Position numbers and translations under genes: made by a program. 53,923 nt of DNA from contig JAKSUW010000006.1 in assembly GCA_024408565.1 (NCBI GenBank), positions 1 to 53,923 of the forward strand. The letters are read 5' to 3'. This stretch comes from Bacilli bacterium (GTDB lineage: Bacteria > Bacillota_I > Bacilli_A > RFN20 > CAG-826). This document shows positions 17,327-24,682 of this stretch, piece by piece. Position 1 is the first letter of the stretch. Each line of letters starts with the position of its first letter. The notes below the pieces were generated by a model, which did not search any database, was not told the DNA's origin, and saw only the letters and a list, made by a program, of their open reading frames with translations.

Positions 17327-18129
17327 TGATTAAATTACACATTAATTTAAAGGATGAATATCCGGATATTTTAAGTCAAGATGTTTATCTTGATGGTTTA
17401 CTTTACGACGAAAGTTTTGAATATCCGCATATTTTAAGAAAAAGCGTTTTAGTTTTACCCGGTGGTGGTTATTCTTTTGTTAGTTACCGCGAGAAAGATC
17501 CGGTGATGTTTGCCTTTTTAAGTAAAGGTTTTAACGCGTTTAGTTTATCGTATAGCTGTTTCGCTCTTTACCCAACTCCGTTTATTGAGACAGCGTGTGC
17601 GATGCATTATATTAACACCCGCGCGCAAGAATTTCACCTTGAGGCGAACACAGTCTCTTTAGTCGGCTTTTCCGCGGGTGGACATTTAGCGTCAAGCTAT
17701 CCAACTGTTTATCAAAAACTCTGGGACAAGAAAGAAGATTTTGCTTCTTTAAAACCGTATGCGTTAGTGTTAGCTTATCCAGTGATTTCACTTGTGAAAT
17801 CGCATAATGACCATTGTATTGAAAATATTTCCGCGCATAACGAAGAGTTAATGCATTTATTAAGCGCGGATGAGCATATTGATAAAAATTATCCACCGGT
17901 TTTTATGTGGGCGACGGAAGACGATGAATGTGTTGATCATCATAATGTCTTATGGCTTAAAAAAGCGTTAAACGAGAAAAAGATTAAAAACCAATGTATA
18001 ATTTATCCGCATGGACCTCATGGTCTTAGCCTCGCGAACGAAGCGACCGCGTGCGGTAATCCCGCCAATATTAACGAAGAAGTAAGCAATTGGCTTAGCT
18101 TAGCGGTGAAATTTATTCAAAATCTTTAG
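17326..18129 (+). CDS. Alpha/beta hydrolase (BD-FAE/acetyl-xylan-esterase-like)
   Basis: A 267-residue cytosolic serine esterase. It has the oxyanion region VLPGGGYSFVSYRE (HGGG-like), nucleophile elbow GFSAGG with S116, acid in ATEDDECVD (about 200) and catalytic His in HGPHGLSLA. This pattern is typical of small carbohydrate esterases that remove acetyl groups from imported oligosaccharides, or of hormone-sensitive-lipase-like enzymes. There is no signal peptide. It starts on the overlapping TAATG of the membrane protein, without its own ribosome site. Substrate unknown. Confidence 0.85.
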   Translation: MIKLHINLKDEYPDILSQDVYLDGLLYDESFEYPHILRKSVLVLPGGGYSFVSYREKDPVMFAFLSKGFNAFSLSYSCFALYPTPFIETACAMHYINTRAQEFHLEANTVSLVGFSAGGHLASSYPTVYQKLWDKKEDFASLKPYALVLAYPVISLVKSHNDHCIENISAHNEELMHLLSADEHIDKNYPPVFMWATEDDECVDHHNVLWLKKALNEKKIKNQCIIYPHGPHGLSLANEATACGNPANINEEVSNWLSLAVKFIQNL

Positions 18130-18138
18130 GAGTAAATT

Positions 18139-18396
18139 ATGAGTGAATTAGAATTTAAATATGATACCCAATGTCTCATTGAAGGGAAAAATTTAGACGA
18201 AAACAAAATTAATGAATATATTAAAAATAACATCAAAGGTGATTCTTTACTCGCGGTGGGGGATGAGACATTAATTAAAATCCATTACCACACCAATGAA
18301 CCGTATAAGGTCATTGAATACGCGATGAGCCAAGGCGAAGTCTATGATATCGTCATCGAAAACATGGAACGCCAAGCCAAAGGTTTACATGGATAA
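18139..18396 (+). CDS. Standalone FakA/DAK2 middle-domain protein
   Basis: 85 residues that match only the central portion of fatty acid kinase FakA (YloV): a start like LEFKYDTQCLIEG, the core GDSLLAVGDETLIKIHYHTN, and the end KVIEYAMSQGEVYDIVIENM. In full FakA this domain follows the DhaL kinase domain and precedes a C-terminal domain that binds the fatty-acid carrier FakB. Neither the kinase nor other domains are nearby, so it cannot phosphorylate on its own. It has a proper ribosome site (AGGAG, 7 nt) and an 8-bp overlap with the next gene, so it is a real short gene rather than debris. It may be an adaptor or regulator; inference. Confidence 0.8.
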   Translation: MSELEFKYDTQCLIEGKNLDENKINEYIKNNIKGDSLLAVGDETLIKIHYHTNEPYKVIEYAMSQGEVYDIVIENMERQAKGLHG

Positions 18397-19309
18397 TTTA
18401 GCGACCCTTTTTAAAAAGAAACAGTTCGATTTAATCGTTAATTTAACATCTGGTAGTAATGACGTTGATGCGGTCACGTATCGTTTAAACGCGTTAATCG
18501 CGTTAGGGCGTTACGCGGAAGCGTTAAAACTTGTTTACGAACATAACGATGTTCTTTATAAGAAAGATCCACTAAAATGCATGGAAATTCATTTTGAATT
18601 ATTGCTCCATGAGCGGAAGTATCTAGAAGCAATGGATGAATTAAAACGCTACGAGGATATGCCATACGTTAGTCAACAAGTGGAAGAATTTTTACGTGTC
18701 ATTCCGAAGAAAATCGCTAATTACCAAACGATGAGTGAAACCAAAACACCGTTTGTTAGCCAAGAAGAAGCCAACGAAATTTTTACTAAATCGCAAGACG
18801 AAGCCAAGATTATCGCGACGATTTATCGCTTAAAACCATTAGATATTTCGCCTTATTTAATGTCGTTACTTATTTTATTAAAGCGGGGCGATGTTAACGA
18901 TGACGCTAAAACGATGGCGTTACTTTTACTTATTAGTAAAAAAGTTAACCGTGATGTCACAATTAATAAAATGAAGAGTGTTTATAGTATTAATCCGGCT
19001 AACGCAGTTCCGCCTTATACGGGCGAAAGTTACCGCCAGACAATTCTTTATATTTACGATTTAATTAAAAAAGAACCCGCGGTTCAAGAAGTGGCGATTA
19101 ATTTATTAAACCAATACATCTTCTCGATTTATCCGATTGATTTATATCATAGTATTAAAGCCAAAGATATTGCATTAGCCTTTATTGTTATGGGTAAACA
19201 ATATTTAAAAGTTGATCAAGATGTGGACGCTTTTTTAGAAGAAAACGCAGAAGATGCGGGCCACGTCATGGCGCTCGTTGAGCTATATCGATTGACCTTA
19301 GATAAATAA
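18389..19309 (+). CDS. TPR-like helical protein, unknown function
   Basis: 306 residues starting at the ATG inside the last codons of the FakA-like gene (8-bp overlap). It is almost entirely alpha-helical. Residues 25-110 have TPR-like pairs (NALIALGRYAEALKLVYEH, then HFELLLHERKYLEAMDELKRY). It has no signal peptide or membrane helix, and no enzyme motif is visible. It probably acts as a protein-interaction scaffold together with the co-translated FakA-like protein. Its stop abuts the first CIRCE-like operator of the tig-lon operon. Confidence 0.7.
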   Translation: MDNLATLFKKKQFDLIVNLTSGSNDVDAVTYRLNALIALGRYAEALKLVYEHNDVLYKKDPLKCMEIHFELLLHERKYLEAMDELKRYEDMPYVSQQVEEFLRVIPKKIANYQTMSETKTPFVSQEEANEIFTKSQDEAKIIATIYRLKPLDISPYLMSLLILLKRGDVNDDAKTMALLLLISKKVNRDVTINKMKSVYSINPANAVPPYTGESYRQTILYIYDLIKKEPAVQEVAINLLNQYIFSIYPIDLYHSIKAKDIALAFIVMGKQYLKVDQDVDAFLEENAEDAGHVMALVELYRLTLDK

Positions 19310-19336
19310 TTAGCACTTTATACTTGACAGTGCCAA
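19310..19336 (+). promoter_or_regulatory. CIRCE-like operator 1 (HrcA type)
   Basis: TTAGCACTT - 9 nt - CAGTGCCAA, exactly the 9-9-9 layout of CIRCE (TTAGCACTC-N9-GAGTGCTAA), with 1 and 2 mismatches in the halves. It overlaps the -35 box. Confidence 0.75.
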
Positions 19337-19352
19337 CAAGAGTCCATATAAT
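19324..19352 (+). promoter_or_regulatory. Consensus sigma-A promoter of tig-lon
   Basis: -35 TTGACA (19324-19329), 17-bp spacer, -10 TATAAT (19347-19352): a perfect consensus promoter, the strongest in the window. The leader to tig is about 110 nt. Confidence 0.92.
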
Positions 19353-19356
19353 GTTA

Positions 19357-19383
19357 TTGGCAATCTTAAGTAAGGACTGCCAA
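19357..19383 (+). promoter_or_regulatory. CIRCE-like operator 2 (HrcA type)
   Basis: TTGGCAATC - 9 nt - GACTGCCAA: 27 bp, again 9-9-9, two mismatches to CIRCE per half, and 8 of 9 positions symmetric. It lies across the expected transcription start, 20 bp after operator 1. Confidence 0.6.
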
Positions 19384-19471
19384 ATGAGTTAGACTTATAT
19401 TATATATAACTTGAAGAGAAGTTAAAGATAATGTATAGTTGAATAACTTGTCAAACATAAGGAGAATGAAC

Positions 19472-20746
19472 ATGAAAACAAATGTGAAAAAGATTGCGGA
19501 CAGCAAATACGAAGTCACTTGCGAAGTGGACGAAAAAGATTGGGTAGAAGCCCAAAAGAAAGCACACAATAAAGCGTACGCTCAAGTGCAAGTGAAAGGT
19601 TTTAGGAAGGGCCACGTTCCTGAGGATATTGCACGTAAACACGTTAACGAGGGTGAAATCCTTAATGAGGCAATTAATTTAGTTTTACCCACTGCCTTTA
19701 CTAAAGCTATGGAAGAAAATAAATTAGAACCATTTTTACGTCCCCAAGTGAACGTTGATAAATTTTCGACCAGTGAATTAACGTTAAAATTTACCGTGGT
19801 AGTCGCTCCAAAAGTGGAACTAGGTCAATACAAAGGTTTAAAAGTCGAGAAGAAGAAAGTAGAAGTCACTGATCAAGAAATTGATAACTCAATTAAAGGT
19901 ATCTTAGATAATAACGCGGAATTAGTGTTAAAAAATGACGCCGCCAAGAAAGGTGATGTGGTCATCCTTGATTTTGAAGGCTTTGTGAATGACAAGCCGT
20001 TTGATGGTGGCAAAGCGAGTAACTACGAATTAACGTTAGGGAGCGGACAATTTATCCCGGGCTTTGAAGACCAATTAATTGGTGTTAAAGCGAACGATAA
20101 AAAAGATGTCAATGTTACTTTCCCCGAAAATTATGTTGAAGAATTAAAGGGTAAAAAAGCCGTCTTTAAGTGTGTGATTCACGAAGTGAAAGAAAAGAAA
20201 GTCCCAGCTTTAAACGATGAGACGGTGAAGGGCCTTGATATGAAAGGTGTCACTACGGTTGCGGAATTAAAAGCGAAACAAAAAGAACAATTAACGAAGC
20301 AAAAAGAAATGCAAGCGGACGAGAGTTACTATAACGCGTTAGTCGATAAGATTACTGCTACAAGTAAGATTAACGTCGCGCAAGAAGTGGTGGACGAAGA
20401 AGCCAAAGGAATGAAAGAGAATATGCGTAAGCGCGTCGAAGAAAACGGAATGAAGTGGGAGCAATATTTACAAATCACCGGCCAAAAAGAAGACGAAATG
20501 GCGAAAAAAATGAAAGAACAGGCCGAGAAAAATATTCGCGTAATGCTCACTTTAAACGAAATCATGAAAGTCGAAAAGATTACCGTTGATAAAAACGATA
20601 TCGATGCGGAATATAAACACATCGCCGATATGTATAAGATGGACGTCAAGAAAGTTGAAGAAATCTTAAGCAAAGACTTAAACAATTTGGTTTACCAAAT
20701 CAAAAGTCGAAAATTACACGATTGTTTAGTCGCGTTAAATAAATAA
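19472..20746 (+). CDS. tig: Trigger factor
   Basis: A 424-residue ribosome-associated chaperone and peptidyl-prolyl isomerase. The N-domain carries the ribosome-binding signature GFRKGHVP. The FKBP-type PPIase domain (about 160-245) shows GDVVILDFEGFVNDKPFDGG and GSGQFIPGFEDQLIGVK. The C-terminal helical arms follow (about 260-424). The start at 19472 is chosen over an upstream ATG because AAGGAG (19459-19464) is then 7 nt away. It lies 12 bp before lon, downstream of the promoter with two CIRCE-like sites, so tig and lon form a heat-shock operon. Confidence 0.96.
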   Translation: MKTNVKKIADSKYEVTCEVDEKDWVEAQKKAHNKAYAQVQVKGFRKGHVPEDIARKHVNEGEILNEAINLVLPTAFTKAMEENKLEPFLRPQVNVDKFSTSELTLKFTVVVAPKVELGQYKGLKVEKKKVEVTDQEIDNSIKGILDNNAELVLKNDAAKKGDVVILDFEGFVNDKPFDGGKASNYELTLGSGQFIPGFEDQLIGVKANDKKDVNVTFPENYVEELKGKKAVFKCVIHEVKEKKVPALNDETVKGLDMKGVTTVAELKAKQKEQLTKQKEMQADESYYNALVDKITATSKINVAQEVVDEEAKGMKENMRKRVEENGMKWEQYLQITGQKEDEMAKKMKEQAEKNIRVMLTLNEIMKVEKITVDKNDIDAEYKHIADMYKMDVKKVEEILSKDLNNLVYQIKSRKLHDCLVALNK

Positions 20747-20758
20747 AGGAACAAGCGA

Positions 20759-21655
20759 ATGGATAGTAACGACAAAATCACTTTACCGGTATTAATTACT
20801 AGAGGACTCGTGGTCTTCCCGTATAATCCTTGCTCGATTGAAGCCGCGCGGGATTTCTCGATGAAGGCGATTGATGCGAGTCGGAAGGAAGCAGATTCCT
20901 TACTTTTAGTCGTGGTGCAAAAAGATCCAACGACTGATAAGCCTGGGAAAGACGAAGTTTATCAAGTCGGTTCCTTATGTCGGATTGTTTCTTTCTTAGA
21001 CCAAAAACGTTTTTACCGCATTAAGGTGAACTGCACAAAGCGGGTCAAAATTCTCGATATGCAGATGAGTAACGGCATGTACGTGGCAAGTGCGCTCCCG
21101 CTAGATGATGAACGGGGCAATAACCGTGAAGAAATGGTGTTAGTGAAAGATATGCTTAGTGAACTCCAACGTTCGCCCGAACTACGGATGAGCATTCCGC
21201 CACAACTAATTATGGCTTTATCTAAGCCGATGGATGCGATTGAATTTGGTAATATCTTAGCCTCTACTCTTCCCATGAGCGTTGATCAACGGCAAGATAT
21301 TTTAGCCACCGATAACGTAAACGAACGGTTAATGAAAATCTATAAAGTCATTAACAAAGAAAAAGAAATCGCTAATATTGACCAAAAGATTCAAAAAGAA
21401 GTTCGTGATTCAATGGATAAATCCCAAAAGGATTATATATTGCGGGAAAAACTCCGCCAAATCCATAAGGAATTAGGTGATAACCAAGAAGAAGGGCAAA
21501 GCCTTTTAGAGCGTCTTGAAAAGAATCCTTATCCGGAACACATTAAAGCGAAAATAAAAGCGGAATATCGTCGCTACGAAATGATGCCCCAAGCGAGTCT
21601 AGAATCATCTTTAATTAAGCAATACATTGATACTTTAATGGAAATTAATAAGTAA
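20759..21655 (+). CDS. lon: Lon N-terminal fragment (as encoded)
   Basis: 298 residues before the TAA: the Lon N-domain (LPVLITRGLVVFPYNPCSIE onward) and part of the coiled-coil linker, ending in IDTLMEINK. Alone it could bind substrate or block full Lon but has no ATPase or protease activity. Weak ribosome site AAGGAAC is 8 nt before the ATG. Confidence 0.7.
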   Translation: MDSNDKITLPVLITRGLVVFPYNPCSIEAARDFSMKAIDASRKEADSLLLVVVQKDPTTDKPGKDEVYQVGSLCRIVSFLDQKRFYRIKVNCTKRVKILDMQMSNGMYVASALPLDDERGNNREEMVLVKDMLSELQRSPELRMSIPPQLIMALSKPMDAIEFGNILASTLPMSVDQRQDILATDNVNERLMKIYKVINKEKEIANIDQKIQKEVRDSMDKSQKDYILREKLRQIHKELGDNQEEGQSLLERLEKNPYPEHIKAKIKAEYRRYEMMPQASLESSLIKQYIDTLMEINK

Positions 21656-21760
21656 AAAAAAACGGAAGATAACGATGATTTAAAGAACGCCCAAAAAATT
21701 CTTGATGAAGACCATTATGGTCTTACCAAAGTTAAAGAACGGATTGTTGAATATTTAGCG

Positions 21761-23074
21761 GTGAAGAAAATGACAGGTAATTTAAAAGCCCCCATCCTTT
21801 GCTTCTATGGCGCACCGGGCGTTGGTAAAACCTCCTTAGGTAAATCGATTGCGCGAGCGTTAGGCCGGAAATTCTTTAAGGCGAGTTTAGGTGGTATTTC
21901 TGATGAAGCCGAAATTCGTGGCCACCGCCGGACCTATGTTGGTAGTATGCCAGGTCGTATTATCGCGGGTATGAAACGTTGTGGTGTGCGAAACCCAGTC
22001 TTCTTACTCGACGAAGTCGATAAAATCAGTCAAACCTTTAAGGGCGATCCGGCGAGCGCGTTACTTGAAGTGCTTGATCCTGAACAAAACTTCGCCTTTA
22101 ACGATAACTATGTGGAAGAGCCATACGATTTAAGCGATGTCTTATTTATCGCTACGGCCAACTACATCGAAAACGTTCCCGCTCCGCTTCGTGACCGGTT
22201 AGAAATTATTGAACTTAGTTCCTATACTGAACTTGAGAAAATCCAAATTGCAAAGCACTTCTTAGTGAAGAAAGAGTTAAAAGCTAATGGCATGAAGGAA
22301 GATCAAGTCATCTTTAAAGACGATGCAATTAAATACATCATCAACCATTACACGATGGAAGCGGGTGTCCGTAATCTTGAGCGCGCGATTGCGAAGATTA
22401 TTCGCAAAGTAATTGTCGAAATCTTTAATAGTGGCAAAAAGAAGACCCAAAAGAAAACGATCGAAATTAAAGATGTTAAAACCTATCTTGGGGTTGAGCT
22501 CTTCCAAGAACTCGCCAAAGAAAAGAAACATCAAGTGGGCGTGGTCACGGGTTTAGCCTACACGCAATACGGCGGTTCCACCTTACCAATTGAAGTGAAC
22601 TATTTCCCAGGTAAGGGTAATCTTGTTTTAACTGGTAAACTCGGTGACGTGATGAAAGAATCCGCGAGTATCGCGCTTGACTACGTCAAAGCTAACGCCA
22701 AACGTTATGGTATTGATTTTAAATTATTCCAAAATAACGATGTCCATATTCACTTCCCGGAAGGCGCAATCCCCAAAGACGGACCAAGCGCTGGTGTTGC
22801 AATTACGATTGCGATCATCTCTTGTTTTAGCAATAAGAAAGTAAGTTGTGATGTAGCGATGACGGGTGAAGTTAACTTACGTGGATCAGCTTTACCAATT
22901 GGTGGGTTACGCGAAAAATCACTGGCCGCTCTTCGCTCAGGGATTCATACGATTATTGTCCCCAAAGGCAACGCTCGTGATGTTAGCGAATTACCTGATG
23001 AAGTAAAGAAGAATCTTAAGATTGTCTACATGGAATGTGTCGACGATGCGATGAAACACGCTTTAATAAAATAA
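21761..23074 (+). CDS. lon: Lon ATPase-protease fragment (if translation restarts)
   Basis: From GTG at 21761 (or ATG at 21770) the frame encodes the whole AAA+ module and the Ser-Lys protease domain. No ribosome site precedes either codon. About 35 conserved Lon codons between the TAA and the GTG would stay untranslated, so restart is not convincing. Confidence 0.6.
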   Translation: MKKMTGNLKAPILCFYGAPGVGKTSLGKSIARALGRKFFKASLGGISDEAEIRGHRRTYVGSMPGRIIAGMKRCGVRNPVFLLDEVDKISQTFKGDPASALLEVLDPEQNFAFNDNYVEEPYDLSDVLFIATANYIENVPAPLRDRLEIIELSSYTELEKIQIAKHFLVKKELKANGMKEDQVIFKDDAIKYIINHYTMEAGVRNLERAIAKIIRKVIVEIFNSGKKKTQKKTIEIKDVKTYLGVELFQELAKEKKHQVGVVTGLAYTQYGGSTLPIEVNYFPGKGNLVLTGKLGDVMKESASIALDYVKANAKRYGIDFKLFQNNDVHIHFPEGAIPKDGPSAGVAITIAIISCFSNKKVSCDVAMTGEVNLRGSALPIGGLREKSLAALRSGIHTIIVPKGNARDVSELPDEVKKNLKIVYMECVDDAMKHALIK

Positions 23075-23098
23075 CTATCTTATTTTAAAAAACCCGAC

Positions 23099-23104
23099 TA
23101 CAAT
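23099..23104 (+). promoter_or_regulatory. -10 box upstream of PTS gene
   Basis: TACAAT, 12 nt before the ATG at 23117, with no ribosome site. The leader would be about 5 nt. It suggests the PTS gene is transcribed independently of tig-lon. Confidence 0.45.
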
Positions 23105-23116
23105 AGTTTTTAGCAG

Positions 23117-24682
23117 ATGAATGATGCTGAACTAAGTAAAAAGGTTATTGAACTCGTTGGCGGCGGTGGTAACATCATCGTCGCTTTTAACTGCTATACA
23201 CGCTTACGGATTAACGTCCGGAATTTTGACCTAGTCAAAGTGCCCGAATTACAAAAACTCGAAGGTGTCATTGGTGTCGTCACTAGTGGCATTCAAGTGC
23301 AAGTGATTGTTGGTCCAGGTCGCGCCGCCAAATTAACATCCGTGGTGAACCAACGCTTAGAAGCGGAAATCTTTAACCGGCAACAAGAGGAGTCAGCGGA
23401 AGCGGCCGCGGCTCACGCAATTGCTGAACAAAGCGATAAAAAATATTTAAAGAATAAAGAGAATTTCCGCGGGAAACTTAATGGCAATTTTAATTCCGTG
23501 ATGAAGAAGGTGGCGGGCATTTTTGTCCCCATCATCCCAGCGTTTATTGCTTGTGGCTTATTACTCGCTATCTTAGAGATTATCAAAATTTATGTTGAAG
23601 GTTTCACTGATACTTCTTTTGGCATTATTCTTAACGTTGTTTCTAGTTCAGTCTTCTCGATTTTAAGCGTCATCGTTGGTTTTAACGCGTGTAAAGAATT
23701 TGGTGGAGATGGCATTCTTGGAGCGTGTTTAGGTGGCATTTTATCAAGTCCGTTATTAGGCGATGCGGAAACGCCACTAGTGATTGGTCCTTTTACAATC
23801 TACGCCGGTTTAGGTGGGGTCATTGCGGTTTTAATGGTCGCAATTAGCGCCGCGTATTTTGAAAAACTCATCCGGAAGTTTATGCCGGATATGCTTGATT
23901 CTTTTTTGACCCCTTTAATTACTTTAATTGTGATGAGCGTGGCTGGCTTATTTTTACTCATGCCGCTTGGCGGCTACATTAGCCAAGGCATTGCAATTGC
24001 GGTTGAAGCGATTGTGAAAAACGTACCAATCTTATTAGGACTCGTCCCAATGTTCTACTTATTCCTCGTTCTTTTTGGCGTTCATCATGGTTTAATTCCG
24101 ATTAGCCAAGCCTTAATTGATGATTATATGAAACAACACGGCACAACCGTTGGTTGGGCCCCGATTGTGCCGGTGCAATTAATGGCGGGAGCGGCGGAAG
24201 TAGGTGCAGCGATTTATGTCTTAATGAAAACCCGTGATAAGAAACTAAAGAAAACGATTAAGCACGCTTTACCAATCGGTATTTTAGGAATTGATGAACC
24301 TTTAATTTGGGGTATGACTTTTACCCATAAACGTTTGTTTATTTCGGCTGGATTAGGTGGGGCGATTGCGGGTGCAGTGGTTGCCTCTCTTAACATTATG
24401 GCAAACGTTCCTGAGACGACTGGTATTCAAGCCGCCTTACTTTGTGGCGTCGATATTAATAAAAAATGGCAATACGCACTTTGCTTTATCCTTGCGATTG
24501 CTTTAGGTTTTATCTTCGCGGCTTTAATTGGTTTTAAAGATACGATTGAAACTACCGATCCAGCGACTGGTAAAGTGAAGACCGAAGTTTATGAAACTTC
24601 TATTGCGAAAAAACTTTATGACCAATACCGCGCAAAACACCCAAAGAAAGTTAAGAGTGAGGTAAAGACCACTCATGATTAA
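23117..24682 (+). CDS. PTS sugar transporter, EIIBC components
   Basis: 521 residues. The EIIB domain (1-75) carries the phosphorylated cysteine C26 in AFNCYTRLRINV. After a linker, the EIIC channel (about 120-500) contains VAGIFVPIIPAFIACGLLL, the HHGLIPI region and GILGIDEPLIWGMTF (the GI-EP motif). This arrangement is the glucose/sucrose/beta-glucoside superfamily. No EIIA is attached or adjacent, as in sucrose, trehalose or MurNAc porters that borrow EIIA-Glc. Specificity is not predictable. It sits between lon and ysxC, which are adjacent in Bacillus, and overlaps ysxC by 8 bp. Confidence 0.9.
   Translation: MNDAELSKKVIELVGGGGNIIVAFNCYTRLRINVRNFDLVKVPELQKLEGVIGVVTSGIQVQVIVGPGRAAKLTSVVNQRLEAEIFNRQQEESAEAAAAHAIAEQSDKKYLKNKENFRGKLNGNFNSVMKKVAGIFVPIIPAFIACGLLLAILEIIKIYVEGFTDTSFGIILNVVSSSVFSILSVIVGFNACKEFGGDGILGACLGGILSSPLLGDAETPLVIGPFTIYAGLGGVIAVLMVAISAAYFEKLIRKFMPDMLDSFLTPLITLIVMSVAGLFLLMPLGGYISQGIAIAVEAIVKNVPILLGLVPMFYLFLVLFGVHHGLIPISQALIDDYMKQHGTTVGWAPIVPVQLMAGAAEVGAAIYVLMKTRDKKLKKTIKHALPIGILGIDEPLIWGMTFTHKRLFISAGLGGAIAGAVVASLNIMANVPETTGIQAALLCGVDINKKWQYALCFILAIALGFIFAALIGFKDTIETTDPATGKVKTEVYETSIAKKLYDQYRAKHPKKVKSEVKTTHD

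Follow-up and report, generated by a model that had tools for sequence, protein, structure and literature searches.

The window, by which we mean the whole 53,923-nucleotide stretch of DNA that was analysed, carries the genes tig and lon side by side on the forward strand, to which all features described here belong. The tig gene (19472 to 20746) encodes a 424-amino-acid trigger factor with Trigger_N, FKBP_C and Trigger_C domains and has its own ribosome binding site. The lon gene (20759 to 23074; LON_substr_bdg, AAA and Lon_C domains) starts 12 bp past tig. Upstream of tig, a promoter scan identified a promoter, termed P1, wherein a −35 box TTGACA (19324 to 19329) and a −10 box TATAAT (19347 to 19352) are separated by 17 bp. 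P1 is the sole 12/12 promoter match within positions 17900 to 23300.

Two inverted repeats, each with 9-bp arms and a 9-bp spacer, bracket this promoter and are predicted to be CIRCE operators for the repressor HrcA. CIRCE1 (TTAGCACTT-TATACTTGA-CAGTGCCAA, 19310 to 19336) overlaps the −35 box, which is part of its right half, and hrcA promoters across the family and order share this overlap. CIRCE2 (TTGGCAATC-TTAAGTAAG-GACTGCCAA, 19357 to 19383) begins 47 bp from the start of CIRCE1 and covers the predicted P1 start, which, judged from the hexamers, lies near 19359, about 7 bp past the −10 box and at the left edge of or inside CIRCE2. The operators therefore overlap the promoter and start region of a protein-quality-control gene. 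This arrangement of two 9-9-9 elements around a perfect TTGACA-17-TATAAT upstream of tig-lon had been described in an earlier, sequence-only reading of this DNA and is borne out here. Relative to the canonical TTAGCACTC-N9-GAGTGCTAA, CIRCE1 is changed at 3 of 18 arm positions (15 of 18 matching) and CIRCE2 at 4 of 18 (14 of 18 matching).

CIRCE1 begins directly past the stop codon of a 321-amino-acid open reading frame (18344 to 19309). This frame has no Pfam match and is an uncharacterised conserved neighbour of tig-lon, with tblastn matches in 80 fetched loci (overlapping between genomes) that include the tig-upstream regions of several genera.

The lon gene of this assembly, and of this assembly only, is interrupted by an in-frame TAA at 21653 to 21655. 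A frameshift, as suspected from the split open reading frame, was rejected in favour of this in-frame stop. Several bases between 21640 and 21665 differ from those of relatives, including one that is 99% identical, and the intact copies of the relatives read a conserved MEIPWYQKT here. The likely cause of the stop is misassembly at this spot or a lesion that this genome alone carries.

The operator pattern recurs upstream of hrcA

When a relaxed CIRCE pattern (TTRGCANT-N11-ANTGCYAA) was scanned over the 930-kb genome, only four exact matches were found, namely the tig pair and a second pair at hrcA (contig C10, 517 to 543 and 564 to 590). The reversed pattern gave no match genome-wide, and 40 simulated genomes of the same size, drawn from a first-order Markov model, contained no exact match either. 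With up to two mismatches allowed, the window alone holds two matches against 1.09 expected, which is unremarkable, and both are the real sites at zero mismatches. Thus, the case against chance is based on exact matching, genome-wide exclusivity and conservation, and not on the count of imperfect matches in the window.

The genome encodes HrcA (E = 1.7e-49; a match to PF01628 plus an N-terminal HTH), on whose presence the sequence-only reading had made its proposal depend, and the derived 9-9-9 pattern that it suggested seeking upstream of hrcA and dnaK is found there. Indeed, the second pair lies directly upstream of hrcA-grpE-dnaK-dnaJ and has the same layout as at tig, including the 47-bp register and a TTGACA-17-TATAAT promoter that overlaps element 1. 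The arms of the hrcA operators match canonical CIRCE at 15 of 18 and 14 of 18 positions and so are as divergent as those of the tig pair, which suggests that the departure from the canonical sequence reflects drift of the cognate consensus. Across the family and order, two elements surround the hrcA promoter in a 45- to 48-bp register in 46 of 48 hrcA loci; in a further locus (G046) the second element is visible with a spacer one base shorter. The element 1 motif also occurs elsewhere in the family upstream of hsp20, groESL, clpB and htpG (gene names read from translated open reading frames).

A lineage-specific CIRCE consensus had been proposed for these sites, and this idea holds in part. 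Element 2 has a form particular to the genus (TTGGCANTY-N9-GACTGCCAA), wherein position 3 is G in 14 of 14 half-sites and the right arm is GACTGCCAA in all seven sites; relatives mostly have A at position 3 and GAGTGC. The asymmetry of element 1 is another matter: in 25 of 25 relatives the first base of its right arm is the C that belongs to TTGACA, and much of the asymmetry is explained by overlap with the −35 box. We conclude that the tig elements are HrcA operators, identified as firmly as sequence can identify them.

Conservation and origin of the tig operators

The operator pair is present upstream of tig in all five genomes of the genus, at −160/−162 and −113/−115 from the tig start, and the trigger factors of these genomes are 59 to 99% identical to that of the window. 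Alignment of the upstream regions reveals that P1, the spacing and both operators are kept while the flanks diverge. This comparison with relatives, which the sequence-only reading had recommended, thus finds the elements conserved throughout the genus.

Synteny of tig and lon is kept throughout the family sample. The operator itself differs from genome to genome beyond the genus, and most other genera of the family lack CIRCE both upstream of tig and in the tig-lon gap. One species from a different genus (G076, genus g27) carries an operator pair ahead of tig, upstream of the gene, and one degenerate site occupies this position in G005. Elsewhere the sites are found between tig and lon, as a pair in G064, G066 and a named UBA7278 genome, as a single CIRCE in G027, and as weaker sites in G012 and G073.

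The sequences of these promoters bear on how tig acquired them. In G076, the tig promoter (L117, 696 to 792) duplicates the genome's own hrcA promoter (L211, 1480 to 1576) over 97 bp at 91% identity. The gene further upstream belongs to the same family as the gene preceding tig in the congener G030 (31% identity, E = 3e-23), which argues that the region is not simply a misjoined hrcA contig. Between the tig and hrcA promoters, 21 of 27 unconstrained positions agree in G076, as do 14 of 15 upstream bases, where unrelated CIRCE promoters agree at 3 to 16 of 27. Copying of the hrcA promoter to tig, apparently recent, is therefore a clear reading of the G076 sequences, and it is suggested by those of G001 (19 of 27). 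For the species of the window (G000), the 14 of 27 agreeing positions lie within the control range, towards its upper end, and such copying is not shown.

A second promoter and the tig leader

Between CIRCE2 and tig lies a second sigma-A-type promoter, P2 (TTGAAG-17-TATAGT, 19411 to 19439), which is outside both operators. The form TTGAAN-17-TATAGT is kept in each of the five genomes of the genus, −60 to −63 relative to the start codon of tig. The promoter scan alone lends P2 no support, as it returned 11 promoter-like sites against 13 expected, and the case for P2 is instead one of conservation. In most members of the family that lack CIRCE, a sigma-A-like promoter lies at about the same distance from tig and is the only tig promoter they have. 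P2 is thus a probable HrcA-independent basal promoter, read here as the original housekeeping promoter of tig, with P1 as a heat-inducible module added upstream.

The P2 region also contains a direct repeat, ATAACTTG (within 19406 to 19450), whose two copies are exactly 37 bp apart. The first copy overlaps the P2 −35 box and the second lies just past the −10 box. The repeat is present in all five genus genomes and, among the fetched loci, occurs only in these tig upstream regions. It is possibly the operator of a further regulator of P2.

The tig leader of the window folds with a z score of −4.4 when CIRCE2 is included and −3.1 without it, and the leaders of relatives give −1.7, 0.0 and −1.75, G001 being the one near zero. 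A structured RNA leader was rejected, since the fold is not kept in relatives and an Rfam search of the tig leader returned no match.

GroEL and ClpB are not detected in the genus

No match to GroEL was obtained in any of the five genus genomes by a search that was positive in 14 of 14 control genomes. Likewise, no full-length ClpB was matched in the genus, and Clp_N was also negative in the genome of the window, so that groEL and clpB, two of the genes named in the sequence-only reading, offered no control for the operator pattern. Because the genus genomes are 66 to 91% complete, absence of GroEL and ClpB from all five is likely rather than certain. This appears to be a genus of small-genome gut Bacilli that lacks both chaperones, and the detectable HrcA regulon accordingly comprises hrcA-grpE-dnaK-dnaJ and tig-lon.

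Discussion

We consider it highly probable that the two elements are HrcA CIRCE operators that make P1 a heat-inducible module upstream of a tig-lon operon, with P2 keeping basal transcription on. At normal temperature, both repeats would be occupied by HrcA dimers, one covering the −35 box and the other the start site, and RNA polymerase would be blocked. Under proteotoxic stress HrcA would become inactive, such that trigger factor and Lon would rise together with HrcA, GrpE, DnaK and DnaJ. P2, lying outside both operators, would sustain basal tig-lon transcription, to which HrcA control probably adds a response to heat. That HrcA binds and represses, that heat induces the module, that P2 is active and that tig and lon are cotranscribed is what we infer from sequence. 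This model is supported by the elements themselves, the presence of HrcA, the matching module at hrcA-dnaK, the conservation of P1 and P2, and the fact that such sites precede lon itself in several genera and classical heat-shock genes elsewhere in the family. Against it count the arms, which differ at 3 and 4 of 18 positions where comparison with Mycoplasma gallisepticum suggested that a functional CIRCE tolerates at most two changes (PMC5138195), the lack of CIRCE at tig in most other genera of the family, and the in-frame stop in lon of this assembly, though relatives are intact.

The departure of the arms from canonical CIRCE, and the fact that HrcA binding here is a prediction, could also mean that the elements serve another repressor, for example CtsR, or are incidental palindromes. 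We regard this as extremely unlikely, since this genome has the same module immediately ahead of hrcA, the pattern is absent from the rest of the genome outside the tig and hrcA pairs, and the random expectation is close to nil. Moreover, a search of the tig upstream regions of the genus for a CtsR tandem heptad pair (GGTCAAA-NNN-RGTCAAA) with two or fewer mismatches gave none, and in the wider search upstream of tig and in the tig-lon gap the same threshold gave nothing except one weak match in a named locus (L016). It is also conceivable, albeit very doubtful, that CIRCE2 acts additionally or mainly in RNA, where it would fold into a 5′-terminal hairpin of the P1 transcript and set mRNA stability. 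CIRCE has been reported as an mRNA element in Bacillus subtilis, and the CIRCE2 arms pair in the folded predicted leader. However, any inverted repeat would fold in this manner, CIRCE1 is conserved to the same degree although it is not part of the transcript, and the rest of the leader fold is not kept (z of −3.1 in the window vs about 0 in G001).

A different division of labor would have the operators real and bound by HrcA while P2 provides nearly all tig-lon transcription, leaving P1 as a minor promoter with a weak or decaying operator. The occurrence of P2 in every genus genome, at the position where relatives usually have their tig promoter, and the drift of the genus operators from canonical CIRCE are consistent with this possibility, which we nevertheless judge unlikely. 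P1 is a perfect consensus promoter that is maintained with its spacing and both operators amid diverging flanks, and vestigial sites would not hold an exact 47-bp geometry over five genomes.

If the HrcA-controlled P1 module operates as we favor, it resembles the class I system, wherein hrcA-grpE-dnaK-dnaJ is controlled by the same repressor, inverted-repeat operator and promoter type, and the tig pair has the geometry of the pair found at hrcA in the same genome. The class I targets are dnaK and groESL, whereas here the target is tig-lon, and a second promoter lies outside the operators. Double CIRCEs at one promoter are known from the Lactococcus lactis dnaK operon (PMC1676014), Lactobacillus plantarum hrcA (PMC3842655) and Spiroplasma melliferum dnaK and clpB (PMC5138195), where there are likewise two copies per promoter, but not on tig. 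HrcA control of lon in some mollicutes, mentioned in the sequence-only reading, is documented for Mycoplasma pneumoniae (PMC7737663) and S. melliferum (PMC5138195), where CIRCE precedes lon. In M. pneumoniae, tig (MPN331) adjoins lon (MPN332), a single CIRCE sits immediately before lon, the trigger factor promoter serves lon as well, and the listed HrcA targets do not include tig (PMC7737663). There the operator is between the two genes, whereas here the pair is upstream of tig, which would place both tig and lon under control. A double operator on tig had seemed unfamiliar, and in the limited literature searched we likewise found no description of tig under HrcA. Regulator and operator are well known, the target appears to be undescribed, and the dual-promoter logic is plausible.

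The predicted HrcA regulon is very small (two operons), with Lon and trigger factor joining the DnaK system as the heat-inducible set in a lineage that seemingly lacks GroEL and ClpB. GroE modulates HrcA in B. subtilis, according to Mogk et al. (1997) as cited in PMC7737663. Were GroEL, the usual modulator of HrcA activity, indeed missing, the stress signal would have to reach HrcA otherwise, either by intrinsic thermosensing or by titration of another chaperone; Campylobacter jejuni HrcA has been described as an intrinsic thermosensor (PMC8533110). We hold as a tentative and rather improbable extension that HrcA of this genus works without GroEL and receives its signal by such another route, and that a copied hrcA promoter brought tig-lon under HrcA and rewired the feedback, with trigger factor and Lon standing in for GroEL and ClpB. 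The lineage could be used to ask how HrcA senses stress without GroEL. In addition, the family displays the HrcA module in three states at the syntenic tig and lon genes (before tig, between tig and lon, or absent), along with one apparently recent copy of the hrcA promoter at tig. Together these offer a natural series in which to follow how heat-shock regulons acquire new genes.

At hrcA itself (L004, 564 to 596, on C10), CIRCE2 accounts for almost all of the predicted 5′ leader in the genus. An AAGGA inside this element is probably the hrcA ribosome binding site, in which case operator and translation signal overlap.
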